Positions 15,233 through 62,281 of a stretch of 64,000 nt of DNA are shown here, in pieces. The position numbers and the translations under genes are program-made. How positions within the stretch are numbered: position 1 is the first letter of the stretch; every line of letters starts with the position of its first letter. Source of the DNA: Bordetella sp. 02P26C-1 (lineage in GTDB: Bacteria; Pseudomonadota; Gammaproteobacteria; Burkholderiales; Burkholderiaceae_B). The stretch spans positions 186,001 to 250,000 of the forward strand of contig NZ_WSJB01000032.1 in NCBI RefSeq assembly GCF_009763255.1, given 5' to 3'. A model generated the notes under the pieces. That model was not told the origin of the DNA, did no database searches, and saw nothing but the letters and a program-made list of their open reading frames with translations.

Positions 15233-16546
15233 ATGAATGATGCTGTACTTTCAGCGCCAGTGGCGCTGCCGGTGGATGAGGAAAAACGCCTGTTCAGGAA
15301 AATCACCTGGCGCCTGATTCCATTTTTGATGTTTTGCTATGTAGCGGCCTATATTGACCGGGTAAACGTCGGCTTTGCCAAACTGCAGATGCTGGACGAG
15401 CTGGGATTCAGCGAAACGGTCTATGGCCTGGGCGCCGGAATCTTCTTTATCGGGTACTTCTTGCTCGAGGTGCCGAGCAACCTGGCGCTGCGTAAAGTCG
15501 GCGCGCGCGTCTGGATTGCTCGCATCATGCTCACCTGGGGGGTTATCTCGGCCGCATTCGTGTGGGTGACCACTCCCACACAATATTATGTGCTTCGCTT
15601 CTTACTCGGTGCCGCCGAGGCCGGTTTCTATCCAGGCGTTATCTATTACCTCATGTCCTGGTACCCATCGAGAAGACGGTCGCAAATCATTGCGCTATTC
15701 ATGGTGGCGATCCCTGTGGCCGGCATACTGGGCGGGCCGATATCCGGGTGGATTATCGCCGAGTTCGACAAATTCCACGGCTATTCCGGTTGGCAATGGA
15801 TGTTCTTTCTAGAAGCCTTGCCGTCAATCGCGCTGGGCGTGGCCACGTTTTTTGTGCTGGACAGCACGCCGGATAAGGCCAAATGGCTCACCGCATCTGA
15901 AAAAGCCTATATCGCGAGGGAACTCGAGCCCCCAACGAATCCGCATGCGCGGATGCTGACTTCGGTCGGGCATGTTTTCCGGGACCCGCGCATGCTGCTG
16001 CTGTCGTTGATCTATTTCTGCGTCATCATGGGGCAGTACGGCCTGACGTTCTGGATGCCAACATTGATCAAAGCGTCGGGCGTGACGGGCGTGGTCAATA
16101 TCGGGCTGCTCTCCGCAGTGCCGTATATTTTCGCGATTATCGCTATGCTGGGATTCGGCCGCAGCTCCGATCGCACCGGCGAGCGGCGCTGGCACCTCAT
16201 CATTCCCATGCTAATGGGAGCGACCGGATATATGGTCGTGGCGATTGCTGGAAACAACATCCCGCTCGCACTGGTGGGACTCTCGCTCGCCGCAGCCGGG
16301 GTGATCACCCCGGGCCCGCTATTCTGGGCACTGCCGTCGGCCTTTCTGGTGGGCAGCGCCGCCGCTGCGGGCGTAGCGGCCATCAACGCCTTCGCCGGCC
16401 TCGCCGGCTTCGTCAGCCCATACTTCATTGGATGGCTGCGCGATCTGACCCAAAGTTCCACCATCGCCATGTATGTCTCGGCGGCGGTGTTATTGGCCGG
16501 CGCCATGATGATTCTGTTGATCCCGGCTAAGGTGGTCAATCGCTGA
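15233..16546 (+). CDS. MFS transporter, anion:cation symporter (ACS) type
   Basis: Twelve-helix major facilitator of 437 aa. The ACS family pattern shows in the first helix (FCYVAAYIDRVNVGFAKLQM), in the SNLALRKVGARVWIARI loop between helices 2 and 3, and in GAAEAGFYPGVIYYLMSWYPSRRRS. A central cytoplasmic loop at about 200-245 separates the halves. AGGGGAG precedes the ATG. ACS members import organic acids such as tartrate, phthalate, hexuronates or ureidosuccinate; here it is the last gene of the operon and probably imports its substrate. Confidence 0.9.
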   Translation: MNDAVLSAPVALPVDEEKRLFRKITWRLIPFLMFCYVAAYIDRVNVGFAKLQMLDELGFSETVYGLGAGIFFIGYFLLEVPSNLALRKVGARVWIARIMLTWGVISAAFVWVTTPTQYYVLRFLLGAAEAGFYPGVIYYLMSWYPSRRRSQIIALFMVAIPVAGILGGPISGWIIAEFDKFHGYSGWQWMFFLEALPSIALGVATFFVLDSTPDKAKWLTASEKAYIARELEPPTNPHARMLTSVGHVFRDPRMLLLSLIYFCVIMGQYGLTFWMPTLIKASGVTGVVNIGLLSAVPYIFAIIAMLGFGRSSDRTGERRWHLIIPMLMGATGYMVVAIAGNNIPLALVGLSLAAAGVITPGPLFWALPSAFLVGSAAAAGVAAINAFAGLAGFVSPYFIGWLRDLTQSSTIAMYVSAAVLLAGAMMILLIPAKVVNR

Positions 16547-16575
16547 TTGCGCTGACTTAACGGAATGGAAGAGTG

Positions 16576-16643
16576 GCGCGGAGCGCAATGCCGGGCAATG
16601 GCGGTTTCAGACCTACCAAAGCACCGTTAGCGCTCCGCGCTAA
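16576..16643. repeat. Inverted repeats between convergent genes
   Basis: An 11-bp perfect inverted repeat (GCGCGGAGCGC at 16576-16586 and its complement at 16630-16640) with a 43-bp loop. Nested at 16627-16643 is a second hairpin with 7-bp arms TTAGCGC/GCGCTAA around TCC. No T-run follows, so it is a possible Rho-independent-like stop or folded 3' end between the MFS gene and the convergent hypothetical gene rather than a clear terminator. Confidence 0.5.
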
Positions 16644-16704
16644 CCTAAAGGGCTAGCGCTAACTACACTCAAAAATACAATCGCGGTTGTTCCTCGCATT
16701 TCAG

Positions 16705-17493
16705 TCATTTCGGTTGTCCTCGCCTTCGGACCAGCTGAAGTGAAGTCGACAGAATACGGACGCACACCGGTATCAAAGCAGCCAGATAGAGCGCTGGTAC
16801 GGCCGTGAAAACGAGAATCTGAGTAGCAGACGCAAAAGTGCTGGCGTACAGAAGCACCGTCCGCCTGGACAGCGTCGGCCCAACGTAATCATGGTTGATT
16901 ACGTCATAGGCAAGTAGAGCGAAAAGGGGGATAAACAGCGCAACCAAAATCGACTTCCACATGGGAATCTTCTTCAGTTCGGCTCGAAGCAGCACTGTCT
17001 TAAGGATACTTGGCCGCACAGACCACAACATCCCCCACGCGGTAAGCAGGATGGCCCCAGGAAACAGGTAAAGCACCACCACCTTCATCGGCATCGGCTC
17101 CAAACCCGTCATGACCGCGACACGATCCACCATTCGCAGCGCATCAATCCGCTCGGTCCACTCGGCGATCCACGCACTGTCATTGGGCGGATATTCCATC
17201 AGCCATGATGCAAAAAACAACGCATAACCGACCAGCATGAAGACAAGCGCGCCGATCAGCAACGGTGCAGCTTGCCGCAAGGTGATCCGCGGCAGCCCAT
17301 CGTCTGGCGCGAACTGTTTCACCAGCTCTGCCTTAAAATTTTTCCAAAACACGCCGTTCACCCTCATGCCTATGCGGTCTGCCGCCCAAACCGCTCTATC
17401 GACAAGATATAGAAACCGCTCGCGCGCCAACACCCCGAGTGAACGAAAACATCCATGAGTAATTACCGCAATGCGCGAGCCACGCGCCTTCAC
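16705..17493 (-). CDS. Unknown multi-pass membrane protein
   Basis: I do not recognise a family for this 262-aa protein. Four hydrophobic segments are visible: about 75-98 (LLIGALVFMLVGYALFFASW), about 145-167 (VVVLYLFPGAILLTAWGMLW), about 182-200 (SILVALFIPLFALLAYDV) and a long pair near 213-250. The N-terminal 70 residues are basic and soluble. The GTG start at 17493 overlaps the upstream gene's TGA in GTGA, so it is coupled to that gene. Confidence 0.68.
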   Translation of the reverse strand: MKARGSRIAVITHGCFRSLGVLARERFLYLVDRAVWAADRIGMRVNGVFWKNFKAELVKQFAPDDGLPRITLRQAAPLLIGALVFMLVGYALFFASWLMEYPPNDSAWIAEWTERIDALRMVDRVAVMTGLEPMPMKVVVLYLFPGAILLTAWGMLWSVRPSILKTVLLRAELKKIPMWKSILVALFIPLFALLAYDVINHDYVGPTLSRRTVLLYASTFASATQILVFTAVPALYLAALIPVCVRILSTSLQLVRRRGQPK

Positions 17494-50264: not shown

Positions 50265-51836
50265 CTATTGCGCCGTCTGTACTTCTGACGCCTTGGTTTC
50301 AGCGAAGAAGGCCTCCGCGCCAGAGTGCAGCGGGATGGTGATGCCAGTGAGCGCATGGCGCAGCGAGATCATGGCGCCGGCAGAGCTGCCCGCCGCGACG
50401 AAGTCGATGCCTGTATAGACGCCGGTCAATACCCGGCGTACCTCGGCGTTCGACATACTGGTGGTCGCAACCAGCAGTGCCGCCACGCCCACGGTGCGCA
50501 CGGCAGTGTCCTGCCCCGGATAGGTGCCTGCGGGCAGCATGATTGGCACGATGCCGGGCGACTTGCGCGCCAACATCGCAACGGCCTCGGGCGACAGCGA
50601 CAGAATGCGGATCGCGTTATCGGCGGCCAAACGCTGCAATTGGCGTTCGGGAGCGCTGATCACGGTGACGAAGGCGTCGATTTCTCCTCGCGCGAGCGCT
50701 TGGCCGGCCTCTACCGGGCCCATGTCGGAGGCCTGGATGTCGGACTCTCGCAAGCCGTGGGCCTCTAGCACTGCCAATGCGGTGTTGCGCGTCCCAGAGG
50801 CGGGCAGACCGAGATCGACTTTCAAACCCCGCAAGGCCGACACCGACGTCGGGCCATCGGCGCGCACCACGAACTGCACGGCTTCTGGGAACAGGCTGCC
50901 TAATGCGCGCAGCGACGGTGCCGCGCCCTGTGCGGCAAAAGGACCTGTCCCTTGAAATGCCATCAGCGCGACGTCGCTTTGCACGATACCGACGGTGGCG
51001 AAATGACTGCGCAACAGTTGCGCGTTTTGCACGCTGCCCTCGGTAGTGGTGGCGGCGACCCTGACGCCGACAGGCTTGCCGAGCGTTGCGATTTCTTTGG
51101 CCACCACGGCGTACTCGCCGCTGGGTTGCCCCCCGGCCACGACGAGTACGCGTTGCAGATTATCCAGCCGCAAGTCGATTTGGCGCATCGCCTCCTGCAG
51201 TTCTTCCGCGATGATGGCGCGCGAGGCGGCGGCCTGCGAAGGCGGCATGACGGAGAAACGCTCCATGATCGGTTCGACGAGTTCGCGCGCGGTTTCGCTG
51301 GCCTGATCTTGCACCGGTACGGCGTCGGGGGCCTCGGGAGGCACAAAGAGGACGGGTTTCCAGTCGCCGTCGTCTTCTTTGCTGAATGTCACCGAGCCGT
51401 GCACCAGCAAGGAATCGCCCGCGGCGTTGCCCGTGCTCTGAATGCCGCTGATGCCACGCTCAGTGGCACCCAGCAGACTGGCCAGCGCCGCCGGGTTCAG
51501 GGCATCCCAGTCCGAAAATCGGTAATCGCGCTCCAGCGTGAAACGCGCGTTGTAATAAACGATCATGCGCGCCGCGCCGTCACCACCGGCGGCCAGGGAC
51601 GCGCTGCCCATGCGTTTGAGACTGGCGATTTCAAGTAGCGGGTCGTGAAAGGCCGAACGCAGGCGTTCGCTCACCACATCCCGCACGTCTGCCTCATCCG
51701 GACCGCGAGCGCAGCCGGTAAGAAACGTCAACAAAAGCAGGCAAAGTGCGAGCCACTGGTAGCGGACAGTGCAAGACCAGAGCGAAGTGCCACGCGCGGC
51801 GGGTACGGGGCATGAAGAGACGGAGAGCCTGAGCAT
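50265..51836 (-). CDS. TAXI-family solute-binding lipoprotein with an extra N-terminal domain
   Basis: Periplasmic binding protein of the TAXI type (523 aa; typical members are about 320). A lipobox L39-T-G-C42 ends an unusually long signal region, so the mature protein is lipid-anchored. Residues about 45-165 form an unfamiliar extra domain, followed by a likely helical linker (about 180-228). The TAXI domain starts near residue 229 (LQRVLVVAGGQPSGEY). Known TAXI proteins usually pair with TRAP membrane proteins and some bind glutamate. Here the partner 13 bp upstream is gltS and no TRAP gene is visible. Confidence 0.8.
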   Translation of the reverse strand: MLRLSVSSCPVPAARGTSLWSCTVRYQWLALCLLLLTFLTGCARGPDEADVRDVVSERLRSAFHDPLLEIASLKRMGSASLAAGGDGAARMIVYYNARFTLERDYRFSDWDALNPAALASLLGATERGISGIQSTGNAAGDSLLVHGSVTFSKEDDGDWKPVLFVPPEAPDAVPVQDQASETARELVEPIMERFSVMPPSQAAASRAIIAEELQEAMRQIDLRLDNLQRVLVVAGGQPSGEYAVVAKEIATLGKPVGVRVAATTTEGSVQNAQLLRSHFATVGIVQSDVALMAFQGTGPFAAQGAAPSLRALGSLFPEAVQFVVRADGPTSVSALRGLKVDLGLPASGTRNTALAVLEAHGLRESDIQASDMGPVEAGQALARGEIDAFVTVISAPERQLQRLAADNAIRILSLSPEAVAMLARKSPGIVPIMLPAGTYPGQDTAVRTVGVAALLVATTSMSNAEVRRVLTGVYTGIDFVAAGSSAGAMISLRHALTGITIPLHSGAEAFFAETKASEVQTAQ

Positions 51837-53085: not shown

Positions 53086-53443
53086 CAAAGTGTTATCCCT
53101 ACGTCAATTCAATCTGGATTGGAGATGCATGCGCTCGCCTGTTAACCGTGTACCACCGCAGGGCGGCCCGCAGCGAGCGAGGCATTTTATAACCAGTGAC
53201 ATGTGACGACGGATGATTCCGTAGGGAAATCCGACCAACTCCGAGAGTGTCGGCGCCAAGCACGAGAAAAAGCGTTTTTGTCCGCCAAGATGGCCCTAAC
53301 TGCAGGCTTTGTTGCGGTATGTGCCAATGGGTCGACTGTCATCAAAATATCACGCTACCGTCACGCGACGGCAACACGCCCTGCCTAGACTGCCGGGACG
53401 CTTGGGAAACAAGCACCCGTCGAAATCTAAGTGAGGCCGTTAC
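53086..53443. other. 358-bp divergent spacer between gltS and the ABC/phosphoesterase operon
   Basis: No gene is seen. The right third holds the Pho-box-like array (53336-53375) and a -10-like TAGACT (53386-53391). The left two thirds contain no motif that I recognise, apart from presumably the gltS promoter. Confidence 0.6.
53336..53391 (+). promoter_or_regulatory. Pho-box array and -10 element
   Basis: Four heptamers repeat every 11 bp: CTGTCAT 53336-53342 (7/7 against CTGTCAT/C), ATATCAC 53347-53353 (5/7), CCGTCAC 53358-53364 (6/7) and CGGCAAC 53369-53375 (4/7), each with a 4-bp spacer. TAGACT begins at 53386, exactly 10 bp after the last heptamer, as in classical PhoB promoters where the box replaces the -35. 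The ABC binding-protein ATG is 53 bp further on. PhoB control is inferred. Confidence 0.7.
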
Positions 53444-55105
53444 ATGAACATCAGCCGCCGTCAGTGGCTCGCATTCACCGCTGGGGTAATCACCACTGCC
53501 GTTTCTACGCCGGGATGGGCGCAGCACCGGGATCAGCCATCCGGAGGAAAACGGATTCTACGCATCGCGGTCTCTGGAATCAGTAATAACGGCACCTTGT
53601 CCACCCTGCGGGAACAGAGCAACGTCGGCAAACGGGTGCTCCCCTCGCTACTGGAACCTCTGATCGCGATGGACGTGCTGGGAGACCTGAGTTTGCAGCC
53701 GGGCCTCGCACAGTCATGGCGCCGCATTGACGACAAAACCATTGAAATCAGTCTTCGCCGCGGAGTGCGATTTCATAATGGCGATGAGATGACGGCTGAA
53801 GATGTGGCTTTCAGCTTTGGACCGGACGTCATGTTCGGCGACACCCCACCGCACCGTGGCGAGGGCGCCAAGACGATTCGCACGGATAACGCCGCAGCGC
53901 ATCGGGCGTCGGGCACACGCTGTCCCGCCGAAGTTGCCGCGGTGGGCCGCCGGCTGTGGCCCTCGCTGGAAGCCGTCGAGGTGCTCGATCCGTATACGGT
54001 GCGATTCGTGAACGCGGTGCCGGACCTGACGTTGGAAGGTCGTTTGGCGCGCATGGGCTGCGACATTATCAGCAAACGGCAATATCAAGAGGCGGGCGAC
54101 TGGCAGGCGTGGGCCTCGGCACCCGTAGGCACCGGGCCGTTCAAGGTGAAGACGTACAAAAAGGATCAGCATCTGATTCTGGAGAAACACGCCGACTATT
54201 GGGGTGGAGCGCCGGAGGTGGACGAAGTGCACTTTTATGAAGTGCCCGAAGTCGCCTCGAGAATCAATGGGATGCTGGCGGGCGAATACGATTTCGCTAC
54301 CGATATTCCGACCGATCAGATCAAGACGATCGAGTCCGCGTCCAAGCTTGAGGCTGTGGGCGGGCCCATTATTAATCATCAGATCACTTGCTTCGATAAG
54401 CATCACCCGGTCCTGGCCGATCCGCGCGTGCGACGGGCCATGGCGCACGCAATCGATCGTCAGCTGATCGTGGAAATGATGTGGGGCGGGCGCACAGTCG
54501 TTCCCCAAGGGCTGCAGTTCGAGTTCTACGGCGAAATGTTCGATCGGAACCACCACACGCCGGAATACAACCCCGAATTGGCACAGCGACTGCTAAAAGA
54601 AGCCGGCTACCAGGGCGAGGTGATCCCTTACCGTGTGCTGAATAACTACTACACCGGTCAAGTGCAAAAGGCGCAGATCATGGTGGAGATGTGGCGGTCG
54701 GTAGGCCTGAATGTACAGATGCAGATGGTCGAGAACTGGTCGCAAATCTATGATGCGTCCAGCCCCCGGGGTATTCGTGACTGGTCGAACTCGGCCGGCT
54801 ATAACGATCCAGTCAGTTCGCTCGTCAATCAACATGGCCCCAACGGCCAGCAGCAGCAAAAGGGCGAATGGAACAACGAAGAGTTCAATCGCCTTTCAGG
54901 GTTGCTCGAGACTTCTACCGACCCGGCGGAACGCCAACGGGTGTATGCGCGCATGCTGCGTATCGCGGAGTATGAGGACCCTGCCTACCTGGTCGTGCAT
55001 CAGACGGCTGCCTTTTACGCCAAACGCAAAGACATTCACTGGAAATGGTCGCCGACCTTTTATATGGATTTCCGGCGCGGCAATACCGCTGAGGTGTCCG
55101 TATGA
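53444..55105 (+). CDS. ABC transporter solute-binding protein (family 5, peptide/opine type)
   Basis: Periplasmic SBP_bac_5 protein of 553 aa that would deliver the substrate to the importer encoded by the next four genes. The N-terminus NISRRQWLAFTAG looks like a Tat signal ending near GWAQ. Family landmarks are the lobe-1 segment PSLLEPLIAMD, RGVRFHNGDEMTAEDVAFSF, and YWGGAPEVDEVHFYEVPE. GAGG lies seven bases before the ATG. Its TGA overlaps the next ATG in ATGA. Family 5 proteins bind peptides, opines, nickel and other compounds, so the substrate cannot be read from sequence. Confidence 0.92.
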   Translation: MNISRRQWLAFTAGVITTAVSTPGWAQHRDQPSGGKRILRIAVSGISNNGTLSTLREQSNVGKRVLPSLLEPLIAMDVLGDLSLQPGLAQSWRRIDDKTIEISLRRGVRFHNGDEMTAEDVAFSFGPDVMFGDTPPHRGEGAKTIRTDNAAAHRASGTRCPAEVAAVGRRLWPSLEAVEVLDPYTVRFVNAVPDLTLEGRLARMGCDIISKRQYQEAGDWQAWASAPVGTGPFKVKTYKKDQHLILEKHADYWGGAPEVDEVHFYEVPEVASRINGMLAGEYDFATDIPTDQIKTIESASKLEAVGGPIINHQITCFDKHHPVLADPRVRRAMAHAIDRQLIVEMMWGGRTVVPQGLQFEFYGEMFDRNHHTPEYNPELAQRLLKEAGYQGEVIPYRVLNNYYTGQVQKAQIMVEMWRSVGLNVQMQMVENWSQIYDASSPRGIRDWSNSAGYNDPVSSLVNQHGPNGQQQQKGEWNNEEFNRLSGLLETSTDPAERQRVYARMLRIAEYEDPAYLVVHQTAAFYAKRKDIHWKWSPTFYMDFRRGNTAEVSV

Positions 55106-56168
55106 ATACGGCAGTATTGACCCGATTTATCGATACGCGAGACTGGACGCGAACCGACAGGCGTCTCATCGGTTCAGCCACCATCGCGCAACCGGCGGCG
55201 GCACGCGAGCGCCAAGCGCTATTGAGTATCCGCGACTTGCACGTCTCGTTCGACACTGGATCGCACCTGGTGCCGGTGCTGCATGGCGTGGATCTGGAGA
55301 TCCGCCGAGGCGAAACGCTGGGAGTAGTGGGCGAGTCGGGCTGCGGCAAGAGCGTGACATGGATGGCGGTGATGCGCTTGCTGGGCGAGCGTGCACGAAT
55401 CCGTGGCCGTATTCAGTTGGGGGCTGACGATATCGCCACGTTTAGCGAACGTCAGATGACACAGGTGAGGGGCAAGCGCATCGCAATGATTTTCCAGGAC
55501 CCCTCCTCTTCGTTGAACCCGGTTCATACCGTCGGCCGTCAACTCATGGAGGCGGTCCGTCTGCATCGAGGCCTGCGCGGCGAGGCGGCACGGGTGGAGG
55601 CGCTAAGACTGCTGGATCGGGTGCAACTGCCCAGCGCGGCGCAACGGATGCGGGCGTGGCCGCATGAGCTGTCCGGTGGGATGAACCAGCGCGTGATGAT
55701 CGCCATGGCGTTGGCGGGCGAGCCTGATCTGCTGGTGGCCGACGAGCCGACGACGGCATTGGATGTCACGATCCAGGCACAGATCCTGGACCTGCTGCGG
55801 GAGCTGCAACGAGACACAGGCATGGGCTTGGCGCTGATCTCGCACGATCTCGGCGTGATCGCGCAGGTGTGTGACCGCGTGATGGTCATGTACGCCGGCC
55901 GGGTTGTCGAAACCGCAACGGCCGATGCGCTGTTTGCTCATCCCCTGCACCCCTATACGCGTGGTTTGCTGGCCGCGCTACCCGAGCTCGATGGACCGGT
56001 CCGGCGGCTGCAGGCCATCCCTGGGACGGTGCCCTCCCCCATGGCCATGCCGGCGGGATGTGCATTTGCGCCGCGTTGCGGTCAGCGCGAGAACGATTGC
56101 GAAGTCCGTCGGCCCGGGTTAAGAGTCAACGCCCTTGACCACTCGGTCGCTTGTTGGAGGCTGACCAA

Positions 56169-56172
<4 letters not shown>
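55102..56172 (+). CDS. ABC ATPase, DppD-type
   Basis: First of two importer ATPases (356 aa). Walker A GESGCGKSV, Q-loop FQDPSSSLNP, signature LSGGMNQRVMIA, Walker B LLVADEPTTALD, and the C-terminal oligopeptide-ABC extension with the cluster-like CAFAPRCGQRENDC. A 40-residue N-terminal leader (to about RQALLSIRD) precedes the ATPase domain, longer than in DppD. ATGA overlaps link it to both neighbours. Confidence 0.94.
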
Positions 56173-57137
<965 letters not shown>

Positions 57138-57152
57138 GAGAAGGACAATCCG

Positions 57153-58088
57153 ATGCTGAATTATCTGGGAGAGCGCAGCCTGCGTCTGGTGATCACGCTG
57201 TGGCTGGTGTTGAGCTTTTCGTTCGTCATTTTGAGACTGTCTGGCGACCCTGCGCTAATCATTCTTTCACCCGATGCCCCACCCGAAGCCGTGGAGGCTT
57301 TTCGTAAAGCCTGGGGGCTGGACGCACCGCTATGGCAGCAGTACGTTGGGTACTTCCTGAATGCGCTGCAAGGGAATTTCGGTGTGTCGATGAAGGACGA
57401 AATCCCCGCGATGCAGTTGGCGCTCGAACGTGTTCCGGCAACGCTGGCGATCACGGTGCCTGCGCTTATTCTGCAATTGCTGATCGGCGTTCCAGCAGGG
57501 GTGTACGCGGCGCTGCACCACAATTCGCGGCTGGATCGATGGTTGATGGGTGCATCGATTGCCGGGCACACCTGTCCAAGTTTCGTGTTGGCGCTGCTAC
57601 TGGTGCTGGTGTTTTCGGTATCGCTCGGGTGGTTGCCTACCGGCGGATATGGCACTTGGCGGCATGCGCTGTTGCCGGTCGCCACCCTCGCCTTCGGTGG
57701 CGCCGCAGTGCTGGCGCGTTTTACGCGATCGGCCATGGTGGAGGTGTTGGCGCAACCCTATATTCGGGCGGCCTTGGCCAAGGGACTGAGCTGGCGGCAA
57801 GTGGTGTTCCAACATGCGCTACCCAATGCCGCGATCCCCACAGTCACGCTGGTGGGCATGATGGTGGGCGGCTTGGTCGCGGGCGCCGTTGTGGTGGAAA
57901 GCGTATTTTCTTGGCCGGGTGAAGGGCGTCTGCTGGTGAGCGCGGTGACGAGTCGCGATTTGTCGGTGGTGCAGGCGGTGTTGTTCATCGTCGCGGCTAG
58001 CATGGTCATCGCCAATCTGATGGTGGATGCGGTGTATGTGATTCTGGATCCGCGTCTGCGCACGCGCCACCATGGTGCGAACGAATGA
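57153..58088 (+). CDS. ABC permease, DppB-type
   Basis: 311-aa permease with N-terminal helix LVITLWLVLSFSFVILRLSGDPA, then the conserved periplasmic segment and a five- to six-helix core. The EAA-type cytoplasmic loop is IRAALAKGLSWRQVVFQHALPNA, followed by VESVFSWPGEGRLL. AGAAGG precedes the ATG and the stop overlaps the next gene. Confidence 0.94.
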   Translation: MLNYLGERSLRLVITLWLVLSFSFVILRLSGDPALIILSPDAPPEAVEAFRKAWGLDAPLWQQYVGYFLNALQGNFGVSMKDEIPAMQLALERVPATLAITVPALILQLLIGVPAGVYAALHHNSRLDRWLMGASIAGHTCPSFVLALLLVLVFSVSLGWLPTGGYGTWRHALLPVATLAFGGAAVLARFTRSAMVEVLAQPYIRAALAKGLSWRQVVFQHALPNAAIPTVTLVGMMVGGLVAGAVVVESVFSWPGEGRLLVSAVTSRDLSVVQAVLFIVAASMVIANLMVDAVYVILDPRLRTRHHGANE

Positions 58089-58975
58089 GCCTGCCTCTTA
58101 TTTCCCACGCGGCCCCGTTTTCGCGCTCGCGCAGCCACATCGCTGCGTTCCTGAAGGCGTGGCCACCCATGGTGCTGCTGAGCCTGGCATGGCTTGCGCT
58201 GATGTTGATTATCGCCTGCACAGCGGACTGGCTTATGCCATATGGCTTCAGTCAGATCGATTTGCGCGCGCGCCTGCAGCCTCCGGTTTTCTTTGGCGGG
58301 GATTGGAGCCATCCCCTGGGCACTGACGAGCTGGGACGCGATGTGTATTCGCGCGTCCTGTCGGCCATCCAGGTCAGCTTGATGATCGCTTTCGCATCGA
58401 CGCTGATATCTACGCTGTTGGGTGTGGTGTTGGGCATGATGGCCGCCCATGTGCGTGGCTGGCTGGAAAGCCTGGTGTTGATGCTTATCGATTTTCAGGC
58501 AGCCATGCCATTCATGATCATCGCCCTGTCGGTGTTGGCGTTCTTCGGTAGCTCGCTTGCGCTATTCATCGTCCTGATGGGGTTTTATGGATGGGAACGC
58601 GCCGCGCGGATTGCACGCAGCATGACGATCACTGCTAATGAGCAGGGCTACGCCGCGGCGGTTCACGATCTGGGTGCATCGGCATGGCGGGTTTACGGCA
58701 AACACGTGCTGCCCAACATCGCCGGCACGATCATCGTCAACATCACGATCACGTTCCCGGGTGTCGTGCTGCTGGAATCGGGATTGTCGTTTCTGGGTCT
58801 GGGCATACAGCCGCCAATGGCGAGCCTGGGCAATATGGTGGGATATGGACGCGAGTATCTGCAATCGGCGCCATGGATCCTGCTGTGCCCCAGCCTGATC
58901 ATCGTGCTCACCACTTTTAGTCTGAGTCTGCTTGGCGATTGGCTACGCGACCGGCTCGACCCTGCTTTGCGTTAA
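58085..58975 (+). CDS. ABC permease, DppC-type
   Basis: 296-aa permease. The hallmark GTDELGRDVYSRVLSAIQVSL segment and the EAA loop EQGYAAAVHDLGASAWRVYGKHVLPN are present, with about six helices and a C-terminal GDWLRDRLDPALR. ATGA overlap with the DppB-type gene and 9 bp before the sulfatase-fold gene. Confidence 0.94.
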   Translation: MSLPLISHAAPFSRSRSHIAAFLKAWPPMVLLSLAWLALMLIIACTADWLMPYGFSQIDLRARLQPPVFFGGDWSHPLGTDELGRDVYSRVLSAIQVSLMIAFASTLISTLLGVVLGMMAAHVRGWLESLVLMLIDFQAAMPFMIIALSVLAFFGSSLALFIVLMGFYGWERAARIARSMTITANEQGYAAAVHDLGASAWRVYGKHVLPNIAGTIIVNITITFPGVVLLESGLSFLGLGIQPPMASLGNMVGYGREYLQSAPWILLCPSLIIVLTTFSLSLLGDWLRDRLDPALR

Positions 58976-58984
58976 GGAACCGAA

Positions 58985-60523
58985 ATGAAGACACGCAAGA
59001 ATGTACTGCTCATCGTGGTGGATCAATGGCGCGGGGATACCCTGCCCATGCTGGGCCACCCTATCAAAACGCCAAACATCACGCGGCTGGCCCAGCGCGG
59101 CGTGACGTTCGCCAATCACTACACGCAGGCGGTGCCGTGCGGACCGGGACGGGCCAGTCTGTTGACGGGTCAGTACATGATGAATCATCGCGCCGTGCAG
59201 AACACCATCCCTCTGGATGCCCGTCATACGAACGTGGCGTGGGAAGCGCGCAAGGGTGGGTACGAGCCAGCGCTGGTGGGCTACACCACGACCACGCCGG
59301 ACCCGCGCCATACCGATGCGAACGACCCGCGATTCCGCGTGTTGGGAGGCGAAATGGAGGGTTGGAAGCTGGTGGGATCGTGGGGGCTGAAGATGGAAGC
59401 TTACTTCGCGTGGGTCGTGCGACAATGGCCCGACATGCCGGCTACGCCAGAAGACATGTGGCTGCCGCAGCAACCGGATCGCGCCGGCACGGACGCGACA
59501 GGCGAACCGTCGCGGGTACCCGCGGAATTTTCCGACACCGCATTTTTTGCCGAGCGCGCATTGGAGTATCTGCATGGCGCGCGACATAAACCATGGTTCC
59601 TCCATCTGGGTTTTTATCGCCCGCACCCGCCGTTTATCGCGCCAGAGCCTTGGAATCAGATGTATGACCCGAGCGATTGTCCGGCGCCGCTGCGGGCCGA
59701 TACGGTAGAAGAGGAAGCCGCCCAACATCCTTTGCTCGGGTTCTATCTGGAAGATGTACGCAAAGAGCGTTTTTTTCGCCATGGCAAAGGCGTAGCCAGC
59801 CGCATGTCGGTCGACGAGGTCAAGCAGATGCGCGCGACTTATTATGGCCTGATGAGTGAGGTCGACGCGCACTTGGGACGCATCTTCGATTTCCTGGAAG
59901 AAACGGGTCAGTGGGAAGACACGCTCATTATCTTTACCAGCGACCATGCGGAGCAATTGGGCGATCATCACCTGCTGGGCAAGCTGGGATATTTCGACGA
60001 GAGCTACCATATTCCCATGATCGTGGCCGACCCACGCAAGGTCGCCGATGGGACGCGAGGCACGATAGTCAGGGAATTCACGGAGACAATCGATACGATG
60101 CCCACCATATTGGAATGGATGGGCCTGCCGATACCGCGGACTTGCGACGGGCATTCCTTGTTGCCCTTTGTCGAAACGGGAGCGACCCCGCCCGGCTGGC
60201 GTACGGAGGTGCATTACGAGTTCGATTACCGCAATATCTTTTATTCGCAACCCGAGTCGTTCGTGGGGACGGGGATCGATGACAGCTCGCTGTGCGTGAT
60301 CCGCGACCACGACTACAAGTATGTGCATTTCACCAATGCTCCACCGCTGTTCTTTGACCTGCGGCGCGACCCCGGGCAATTCAACAACGTGGCGAGCGAC
60401 CCGGCCTATGGCCCCACCCTGCTCCGCTATACTCAAAAGATGCTTTCGTGGCGCATGCGATACATGGACAGAACTTTGACCGGCTACGCGGCCAGCCCTG
60501 AAGGATTACGGAAACGCGCATGA
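58985..60523 (+). CDS. Phosphonate monoester hydrolase/phosphodiesterase (sulfatase superfamily)
   Basis: 512-aa enzyme resembling the phosphonate monoester hydrolases of Rhizobium and Burkholderia (PehA). The metal Asp-Gln pair is D13-Q14 (VVDQWRGD). The nucleophile motif is C52-G-P-G-R56 followed by ASLLTG, which fits the C-x-P-x-R pattern modified to formylglycine; relatives usually carry Ser or Ala where G55 stands. D320-H321 (FTSDHAEQLGDHH) and H213 (RPHPPF) complete the metal/substrate site. TTTTPDPRHT matches the family loop. There is no signal peptide, so it acts in the cytoplasm. It lies in the ABC operon and its stop overlaps the HAD phosphatase gene. Confidence 0.88.
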   Translation: MKTRKNVLLIVVDQWRGDTLPMLGHPIKTPNITRLAQRGVTFANHYTQAVPCGPGRASLLTGQYMMNHRAVQNTIPLDARHTNVAWEARKGGYEPALVGYTTTTPDPRHTDANDPRFRVLGGEMEGWKLVGSWGLKMEAYFAWVVRQWPDMPATPEDMWLPQQPDRAGTDATGEPSRVPAEFSDTAFFAERALEYLHGARHKPWFLHLGFYRPHPPFIAPEPWNQMYDPSDCPAPLRADTVEEEAAQHPLLGFYLEDVRKERFFRHGKGVASRMSVDEVKQMRATYYGLMSEVDAHLGRIFDFLEETGQWEDTLIIFTSDHAEQLGDHHLLGKLGYFDESYHIPMIVADPRKVADGTRGTIVREFTETIDTMPTILEWMGLPIPRTCDGHSLLPFVETGATPPGWRTEVHYEFDYRNIFYSQPESFVGTGIDDSSLCVIRDHDYKYVHFTNAPPLFFDLRRDPGQFNNVASDPAYGPTLLRYTQKMLSWRMRYMDRTLTGYAASPEGLRKRA

Positions 60524-61287
60524 ACACGCTTGAAATTTTCTCGACCCCGGTGGTGGGTGACGATGCCGGCTGCGATCACGCGCGGGCGGATCTGACGACG
60601 GACAAGGTTGAACAGCGCGCGCTGCACGCTTTGTTCCGCCAAGCCGACGTGCGCGGGCTGATATTCGATCTGGATGGCACGCTGATCGACAGCGCGGACG
60701 ATATCGTGGGCAGTATGCGCGACATGTTGCGCGAGACCGGCTATGGCGAGGTCCCCCAAGATTACTTCCCCGAAAATCTGCATGGGACAAGTGACGGCAT
60801 CATTCGCGATGTCATGCGGGATATGGGTTGGGCGGCCCCTGACGATCTGACTGAACTGAAGGCGACGTATTACCGCATCTATGCCGAGCGCGGGCATGCC
60901 AACACCCGGCTGTATCCCCACGCATGGGAAATCCTGCGGCAATGCAGCGAGCATTTCTCATTGGGGGTATGTACCAATAAGATTTATCGCAATGCCGTTT
61001 CGGTAACGGACACGTTGGGCATCCGCCAGCATTTCGCCGCGATCACCGGCGCGGATTCTTGGTCGGCCGCAAAGCCGTCTCCGGTGCCGCTTTTGGAAAC
61101 GATACGCACGCTGAATCTGCGCCCGGAGGAATGCCTCTATTTTGGTGATACGTCCGTCGACGCCGAATGCGCAGCGCGGGCCGGCGTACGTTTCGTGCTG
61201 CATGAGTCGGGGTACGGAGACCCGGCGCTGCACAAGCAGCCTTGTCATCATGCGTTCAAACAGTGGAAGGAACTGTTGACCGTCTAA
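60520..61287 (+). CDS. HAD-superfamily phosphatase
   Basis: Haloacid dehalogenase-type hydrolase of 255 aa, phosphoglycolate-phosphatase-like. Motif I is DLDGT (D50/D52), motif II is VCTNK, the motif III Lys is in AAKPSPVPL, and motif IV is FGDTSVDAE. A 45-residue leader precedes motif I. ATGA overlap places it in the same operon as the phosphoesterase, where it could free phosphate from the monoester released by that enzyme. Confidence 0.9.
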   Translation: MNTLEIFSTPVVGDDAGCDHARADLTTDKVEQRALHALFRQADVRGLIFDLDGTLIDSADDIVGSMRDMLRETGYGEVPQDYFPENLHGTSDGIIRDVMRDMGWAAPDDLTELKATYYRIYAERGHANTRLYPHAWEILRQCSEHFSLGVCTNKIYRNAVSVTDTLGIRQHFAAITGADSWSAAKPSPVPLLETIRTLNLRPEECLYFGDTSVDAECAARAGVRFVLHESGYGDPALHKQPCHHAFKQWKELLTV

Positions 61288-61330: not shown

Positions 61331-62281
61331 ATGACTGCCTCACCGAACATATCGTTATTACAGCTGCGGGCTTTTTTGGCGGTCAGCCGCTACGGCAGCT
61401 TTACGCGCGCTGCCGAGGTGTTGCATCGTACCCAGCCGGCGATTACGCAACAGATACGATCGCTGGAGGAATCGCTGGGGTTGAAGCTATTCGATCGTAC
61501 AACCAGGCATCTGCGCTTGACCGAAGCAGCGGCGGATCTGGTGCCTGTGCTCTCGGCCATGCTCAAACAGCTGGACGATGTCGTGGATGCGACGCAGGAC
61601 TTACGGCACAAGCGTCGCGGCACGGTGAGGCTGGGATGTTTACCGTCGGTTGCGGCACTTTATTTACCGGGGCGAGTGGCAGAATTTCGGCGGCATTACC
61701 CCGGCGTATCGTTTGTGGTGAGCGATGGCCTGGGGGATCAGGTCGTAGGCATGGTCAAACGTGGCGAGGTCGATTTTGGGATCACGGACGTGCAGCAGCC
61801 TGCGCACGATTTGCGTATACGCCCTCTCCTGCGCGAAACCATCCAGATTTTGTATCTGGATGGGCATCCCATTGCGCAGGCGCCGTGTATCGATGTGGAC
61901 GAGCTTAGCCGGCACGATCTGATTCTGACGGCCCCGGGAAGCACCGTGCGACGCATCGTGGACACCGCCTTTGCCGCGCAAGGCCGCGTGGCCATCGCGA
62001 CGTGTCAGGCGTCGTATAACACCACCGCCATCGGCATGGTGCAGGCTGGCCTGGGCGTGGCCTTATTGCCCGCGAGTGGCTTTGATCTGGACCAGGACAA
62101 GCGGCTGCGCACGCGCGCCATCGAGGCGCCAGGCTTCGATCGGGAGCTCTGCATGATTCAGCTCAAGGATCGATGCATGCCGCCTTCTACACAGGCGTTC
62201 TTGGCAATGTTAGAGGCGGAAACGGGACTTCAGTCCTTGCGGGATGCGGTGCCTGCCTGGAGCGCAACGCTGCCCGGTTAA
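61331..62281 (+). CDS. LysR-family transcriptional regulator
   Basis: 316-aa LTTR. The helix-turn-helix is LLQLRAFLAVSRYGSFTRAAEVLHRTQPAITQQI-like (about 8-40) and the effector domain spans about 95-300. Encoded 43 bp after the HAD gene on the same strand, it could be the last gene of the importer operon or regulate the AtuA pair that follows after 157 bp. Effector unknown. Confidence 0.9.
   Translation: MTASPNISLLQLRAFLAVSRYGSFTRAAEVLHRTQPAITQQIRSLEESLGLKLFDRTTRHLRLTEAAADLVPVLSAMLKQLDDVVDATQDLRHKRRGTVRLGCLPSVAALYLPGRVAEFRRHYPGVSFVVSDGLGDQVVGMVKRGEVDFGITDVQQPAHDLRIRPLLRETIQILYLDGHPIAQAPCIDVDELSRHDLILTAPGSTVRRIVDTAFAAQGRVAIATCQASYNTTAIGMVQAGLGVALLPASGFDLDQDKRLRTRAIEAPGFDRELCMIQLKDRCMPPSTQAFLAMLEAETGLQSLRDAVPAWSATLPG

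Follow-up and report, generated by a model that had tools for sequence, protein, structure and literature searches.

Which compounds does an ATP-binding cassette (ABC) importer of the peptide type carry when its genes share an operon with a phosphonate monoester hydrolase (PMH)-like enzyme and a phosphatase? The question is raised by seven genes of Bordetella sp. 02P26C-1 in the window, the whole 64-kb stretch of DNA that was analysed (G000:C24:186001-250000, in a 4.1-Mb genome). The genes occupy 53444-61287 on the + strand with intergenic gaps of -4, -4, 15, -4, 9 and -4 bp. Their Pfam content is SBP_bac_5, twice ABC_tran with oligo_HPY, twice BPD_transp_1, Sulfatase (alkaline-phosphatase superfamily) and HAD_2. 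A first-pass annotation had described seven genes overlapping or less than 20 bp apart; all were found again and the Pfam content agrees. We propose, with a probability of about three in four, that this is a Pho-controlled scavenging operon of the acc type known from Agrobacterium plasmids, in which AccF and AccG are replaced by the hydrolase PehA and a HAD phosphatase. Phosphodiesters and/or phosphonate monoesters would be imported and then cleaved in the cytoplasm.

The binding protein is a predicted member of the AccA group

By sequence and by fold, the closest solved relatives of the binding protein are the AccA proteins, whose ligand is agrocinopine, a sugar phosphodiester. The phosphate and anomeric contacts of AccA are N54, N284, Y375, Y376 and S419 (PMC4526662). 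All five are kept by alignment in the window protein, as N60, N311, Y402, Y403 and S448. Across 108 binding-protein rows, one of them of the acc type, these five cradle positions were invariant with at most one exception. Equally conserved were 40 of the 553 positions, with all five cradle positions among them (hypergeometric P about 2e-6), and none of the six gate and sugar positions was invariant. In ten paralogue rows from the same genome, N54, N284 and Y375 (AccA numbering) occurred in none, Y376 in three and S419 in six, and no row carried the full set.

The gate residues W178 and W423 of AccA and its sugar contacts T430, E434 and E510 correspond to M204, G452, S459, Q463 and Y540, where the E510 column is loosely aligned, the acc-type row having M there. 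Since the gate tryptophans and the sugar contacts are changed, the side group recognised would differ from that of AccA. We conclude that, judged by these residues, the binding protein is a member of the AccA group and not a generic peptide binder. The first-pass annotation had considered such an importer unusual for phosphodiesters. This has to be revised, because a phosphodiester ligand has been published for the AccA group and the acc system offers a direct precedent.

At L054, L068 and other Roseomonas-type loci (L numbers denote loci of other genomes and plasmids) each importer is accompanied by a tandem array of two to six genes for AccA-type binding proteins. Such tandem binding proteins suggest a wider range of esters.

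PehA is a predicted PMH-type hydrolase

PehA matched RlPMH (2vqr, E 3.5e-203) and BcPMH (2w8s, E 2.8e-199) over the full length. The formylglycine motif CxPxR and the compared metal- and phosphate-binding residues are present. In an alignment of 39 rows, from which fragments and a split gene of L033 had been removed by length, D13, C52, P54, R56, N73, Y100, T102, H214, D320, H321 and K333 were identical in every row. The functional roles of the compared positions, apart from those of RlPMH Y105 and T107, are presumed by us. Y100 and T102 of PehA align with Y105 and T107 and replace the Lys and His of the arylsulfatases. According to the available passages of PMC5488252, these two residues set PMHs apart from arylsulfatases. 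The comparison supports the prediction of a PMH-type phosphonate monoester/phosphodiester hydrolase, the chemistry that had been assumed for this gene before.

A formylglycine motif needs a formylglycine-generating enzyme (FGE), and two FGE-family proteins scored above the cut-off in this genome. On a contig other than that of the window, an FGE gene is separated by about 2 kb from a weak and distant match to the PehA/sulfatase family (G000:C6:52978-53916 and C6:55733-56131).

PehA starts with MKTRKNVLLIVVDQW. Its N-terminus, read directly from the sequence, shows no signal-like features, which agrees with the missing signal peptide described in the first-pass annotation. The N-terminus of the binding protein, read in the same way, has a leader including a twin-arginine-like SRRQW stretch. 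The earlier view that import would precede hydrolysis is supported by the sequences.

An in-frame TGA in the PehA homologues of one genus was considered as a selenocysteine codon. It was rejected as a terminal stop that had been read through, because L029 has an open frame of 497 aa ending there; the other three genomes presumably have the same stop.

A Pho box precedes the operon

Upstream of the first gene we found a Pho box of three 7-mers with a period of 11 bp, plus a weak fourth unit. A three-unit consensus pattern with up to three mismatches matched once genome-wide, at the 53336 site, and the backward control gave 0 matches. A separate pattern derived from the 53336 site also finds that site, which is circular. 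The genome encodes PhoB above the cut-off (367 vs 296 bits). With a box 5' of the operon and PhoB in the genome, the locus has the sequence features of a Pho regulon member.

Elsewhere in this genome, a two-unit pattern has sites next to ppk/ppx, phoU and a pstS-like gene. Thirty of its 52 sites were retrieved as loci and eight neighbouring proteins were then scanned. Four were Pho-linked (polyphosphate kinase, Ppx/GppA, a PstS-like protein and PhoU) and four were not (LacI, EamA, TctB and MFS).

The relatives of the operon were scored at 64 loci, from up to 350 bp 5' to 60 bp 3' of the start of the first module gene. The shuffle P was ≤0.05 in 28 loci for the three-unit score and in 18 for the two-unit score; upstream of the RlPMH operon it was 0.005. 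When 45 dereplicated upstream regions were compared, the period of 11 gave 18 regions at 15/21 or better, whereas periods 8-10 and 12-15 gave 0-3. Permuted motifs (n=300) reached a mean count of 1.3 and a maximum of 10 at this threshold, and none matched the real mean. Taken together, the three-unit box and the period-11 signal in the relatives support the Pho control that had been assumed, and the operon appears from its sequence to be under PhoB control and switched on at phosphate starvation.

Importer and phosphodiesterase form the conserved unit

For the distribution of the module, 300 genomes were sampled from the order and searched for PehA and the binding protein at E 1e-60. PehA matched in 14 and the binding protein in six, and the two were adjacent in this genome and in G240. 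When named genomes were scanned with an alignment of the binding protein, 58 loci came up. The spurious L090 (22% identity) was removed; L020 is the same locus as L043 and was not counted. The following tallies refer to 58 loci, the 57 of the scan and the window. The module is patchy, yet it spans Alpha- and Betaproteobacteria.

PehA was found near the module in 39/58 loci, a glycerophosphodiester phosphodiesterase (GDPD) in 9/58 and an NPP-like enzyme in 6/58, these categories overlapping. Any of the three was linked in 42 loci. Without the loci at contig ends a phosphodiesterase was linked in 31/43, and at the paralogue loci in 0/9 (ten regions were retrieved, and L164 without a binding-protein match was not counted). 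Six loci had no known partner, four of them cut by a contig end. A TIM-barrel protein (AP_endonuc_2) was not scored as a phosphodiesterase, because GDPD accompanies it in L062 and L093-L095. At L058, L074, L079 and seven similar loci the importer stands with a xylose-isomerase-like TIM-barrel protein and without a known phosphodiesterase. A GntR/UTRA regulator adjoins it in L074, and by clustering in other loci of this type as well.

PehA is the last gene in the betaproteobacterial loci and lies ahead of the binding proteins in most of the PehA-bearing alphaproteobacterial ones. The linkage of PehA to the importer thus persists despite the changes in order. On pRL9 (NC_008379), an orthologous operon begins with the gene of the characterised RlPMH (RL_RS26995). 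In a plasmid collection 36 records had a PehA relative at E 1e-80. Those with at least 56% identity, nearly all from Rhizobium, had a binding-protein gene adjacent in 20/20, a count that covers 20 of the 36 records, the other 16 being at 38-44% identity. In the order search, the binding protein alone led to four loci (L021-L024), with an NPP-like enzyme in 4/4; PehA led to L026 and L028, so its presence there holds by construction. At L037 (Verminephrobacter), on a contig of 3.2 kb, the binding protein and ATPase 1 are followed directly by PehA, and ATPase 2 and the permeases are missing.

Pseudosulfitobacter, S. meliloti, A. larrymoorei and R. etli have GDPD at the place of the enzyme. In a FastTree phylogeny, five GDPD-linked binding proteins group, at a support of 0.996, with the one encoded in the RlPMH operon, and the hydrolases therefore appear to have been exchanged.

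The HAD gene behaved differently. It was near the module in 7/58 loci, six of these with PehA, and its product scored 117 bits against a TIGR01449 cut-off of 180. On the count of loci, the HAD protein was rejected as a member of the conserved unit. It is the weakest part of our reading, and its proposed step follows from the family to which it belongs. The first-pass annotation had proposed a trio of importer, hydrolase and HAD enzyme; its transporter and hydrolase pair is conserved in other genomes, whereas the HAD enzyme is not a regular member. All three stand together in six of the 58 loci, the window included, and are thus not confined to this strain. We conclude that the conserved unit is the importer with a phosphodiesterase, not the trio.

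Relation to known systems

The acc operon (AccABCDE-F-G) and the window operon agree in gene order: an AccA-type binding protein is encoded first, two ATPases and two permeases follow, and the genes of a phosphodiesterase and a phosphomonoesterase close the series. It has AccF (GDPD), AccG (inositol-monophosphatase type) and the DeoR-type regulator AccR, where the window has PehA, HAD and LysR. An operon on pAoF64/95, which we label acc-type although its record does not carry the name acc, has the same order as the window operon, with GDPD and inositol-monophosphatase at the places of PehA and HAD. The available part of PMC4086400, citing Kim et al. 2008, describes the acc operon as activated by phosphate limitation. 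Since the gene order on pAoF64/95 is equal and acc answers phosphate limitation, the window operon would follow the acc layout, with other enzymes at both catalytic places. A Na/Pi (inorganic phosphate) cotransporter gene lies on the opposite strand near the pAoF64/95 operon (L097:3861-5504).

RlPMH and BcPMH are full-length family matches with identical residues at the compared catalytic positions. In the passages available they are known from in-vitro model substrates and have no operon role assigned. The PehA gene is the first of the operon on pRL9 and the sixth in the window operon. Two further systems use organic phosphorus under Pho control. Ugp/UgpQ and other glycerophosphodiester uptake systems import an intact phosphodiester and hydrolyse it inside the cell; the importer class of Ugp differs from that of the window and its enzyme is a GDPD. 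The carbon-phosphorus (C-P) lyase pathway works with the PhnCDE importer; PehA homologues lie near its genes in some genomes, and the window operon contains no C-P lyase genes.

Proposed pathway

At low phosphate, PhoB would bind the box at 53336 and switch the operon on. The AccA-type protein would catch a small phosphoester in the periplasm, either a phosphodiester or a phosphonate monoester. Both candidate ligands carry two organic arms and, at the phosphorus, a single negative charge. By analogy with the AccA crystal contacts, the phosphoryl centre would be held in the cradle of N60, Y402, Y403, S448 and N311. The importer would then carry the uncleaved ester to the cytoplasm, where PehA, activated by FGE, may cut one ester bond. 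A phosphodiester would yield an alcohol and a phosphomonoester, from which the HAD protein or other phosphatases could release phosphate. A phosphonate monoester would yield an alcohol and a free phosphonate that the C-P lyase of this genome could use.

Phosphodiesters or phosphonate esters

The presence of the C-P lyase gene phnJ (PF06007) was tested in 35 binding-protein genomes, which cover 33 of the 57 scan loci, this genome and G240. It was present in 31 of them, this genome included, where PhnJ is encoded on a contig other than that of the operon. Among the Betaproteobacteria, 9/12 module genomes had phnJ vs 29/298 other genomes of the order sample (Fisher P 4e-7). Among the Acetobacteraceae/Rhodospirillales, placed by title or genus, the counts were 13/14 vs 120/299 in the background (Fisher P 9e-5, on raw counts with the overlap of module and background genomes left in). 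In four genomes of one genus among the matches listed, a PehA homologue (46-48%) lies 3-13 kb from phnJ. At L028, PehA stands between a phnD-type transporter and an importer whose binding protein has four of the five cradle residues. The same region (L028:38-13961) looks like a phosphorus island in one direction, with the importer, PehA, the phnD-type transporter, PhoD and a Na/Pi cotransporter.

In the available part of PMC5649143, PMH-like enzymes are proposed to free phosphonate from marine esters, and this proposal fits the module. The GDPD partners and the HAD protein favour phosphodiesters. We keep both substrate classes and lean towards phosphodiesters, as what the importers of this class would have in common.

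Weighing the alternatives

Several of our own results weigh against a Pho-controlled phosphoester operon. In NCBIfam NF045661 PehA scored 899.9 bits, 0.1 bit short of the equivalog cut-off of 900, which is a threshold of the curators and no biochemical criterion; 7/8 of the module relatives scored pass it, and L063 reached 895.3. The two-unit Pho pattern was noisy, with 52 genome matches vs 30 for the backward control, and was dropped as a stand-alone proof. A significant three-unit score was obtained in only 28 of the 64 loci, and no significant three-unit box was found upstream of the relatives L033, L035 and L077. Within its own order the module is rare, with adjacent genes for PehA and the binding protein in 2/300 genomes, and the HAD gene is missing from most loci. 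Ten of the 58 loci have a TIM-barrel protein without PehA, GDPD or an NPP-like enzyme, and two uncut Stella loci have neither a phosphodiesterase nor a TIM-barrel protein.

The phosphonate-ester route might also be the main function, with PehA stripping the alcohol after uptake, C-P lyase breaking the phosphonate and phosphodiesters as side substrates. The phnJ gene of this genome, its enrichment in the module genomes, the PehA homologues close to phnJ or beside a phnD-type transporter and the marine proposal all speak for it. However, phnJ was not found in three of the 12 betaproteobacterial module genomes (L033, L077 and G240), several loci have GDPD, whose chemistry is phosphodiester cleavage, and the route has no need for a HAD enzyme. 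The co-occurrence with phnJ, for which lifestyle and genome size were not controlled, may also mirror phosphorus scavenging in general. We therefore regard this function as possible but doubtful. Import of an agrocinopine-like opine or sugar-phosphodiester specifically, as by acc, would explain why AccA is the closest solved relative and why the gene order equals that of the acc-type operon. It is improbable, as W178, W423 and E434 have become M204, G452 and Q463 and Y540 stands in the E510 column. DeoR, GDPD and inositol monophosphatase were all absent among ten proteins scanned in or beside the operon, and several record titles of module genomes mention ponds or lakes and none a plant tumour.

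PehA might instead be a sulfatase that acts on imported organosulfates. It has the Sulfatase fold (PF00884) and the formylglycine motif, and weak sulfatase activity of a PMH, BcPMH, is reported in the available part of PMC12421950. Against this stand the PMH-type Y100 and T102 in place of the arylsulfatase Lys and His, the upstream Pho box, and the GDPD and NPP-like enzymes that occupy the same module, and we consider sulfate-ester scavenging highly improbable. That the locus is a plain oligopeptide importer, and that the hydrolases downstream of it are unrelated and stand there by chance, is scarcely credible. The ATPase and permease families are indeed those of Opp/Dpp, but the AccA-type cradle is invariant across the 108 rows, and the linkage to PehA survives a changed gene order, with such enzymes at 0/9 paralogue loci. 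The Pho-controlled import and cleavage of phosphoesters remains the reading that we prefer.

Features of the operon and its surroundings

Table 1. Features of the operon and the adjoining regulator gene (positions in the window).
Feature	Position	Strand	Details
Pho box	53336..53364	+	CTGTCAT-N4-ATATCAC-N4-CCGTCAC, 11-bp period; ends ~80 bp 5' of the first ATG
Periplasmic binding protein, family 5, AccA type	53444..55105	+	SBP_bac_5
ABC ATPase 1, Opp/Dpp type	55102..56172	+	PF00005 + PF08352
ABC ATPase 2, Opp/Dpp type	56169..57137	+	PF00005 + PF08352
ABC permease 1, OppB/DppB type	57153..58088	+	PF00528 + PF19300
ABC permease 2, OppC/DppC type	58085..58975	+	PF00528 + PF12911
PehA, predicted phosphonate monoester hydrolase/phosphodiesterase	58985..60523	+	T-PMH type; formylglycine motif C52-G-P-G-R56
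HAD phosphatase, phosphoglycolate-phosphatase-like	60520..61287	+	PF13419; proposed phosphomonoester step
LysR regulator	61331..62281	+	PF00126/PF03466; starts 43 bp past the operon

The nearest named operons are those of an Alcaligenaceae bacterium (L033; binding protein 77%) and Pusillimonas (L034; 75%). In L033, PehA is broken into two frames (15673-17242) and the remaining operon genes seem intact. The LysR gene probably lies outside the conserved module. Next to the L033 and L034 modules nothing matched it above 60 bits, and L040 has only a 27% match on the opposite strand, so that LysR is unsupported as a module regulator. Upstream of the operon, on the - strand (50265-51836), the window encodes a TAXI-TRAP-type solute-binding protein of 523 aa that is matched over residues 217-514 only; a GltS symporter gene adjoins it.

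Meaning for phosphorus acquisition

In the literature covered we found no report that joins PMH/PehA, an AccA-type importer and Pho control, an absence of little weight as most subscription journals lay outside the search. The parts belong to known families. What appears to be new is the coupling of AccA-type import to Pho-controlled PMH hydrolysis, together with its breadth and the residue signature. In the parts of this literature available to us, AccA-type importers have so far been tied to the opines of Agrobacterium only. There is an even chance, in our estimate, that they form a broad class of phosphoester importers for phosphate starvation in Alpha- and Betaproteobacteria. Such a class would have exchangeable PehA, GDPD and NPP-like enzymes, would give the PMHs their native role, would in some cases feed C-P lyase, and would include tandem binding proteins (up to six per locus).

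As examples of catalytic promiscuity the PMH enzymes have been studied in depth, yet the papers covered, as far as available, use model substrates. If our reading is true, these enzymes would naturally serve, during phosphate starvation, to cleave imported phosphoesters inside the cell. The agrocinopine system would then be one specialised case within a wider route of phosphorus acquisition, and the five-residue signature could re-annotate some 'peptide' importers as phosphoester importers.

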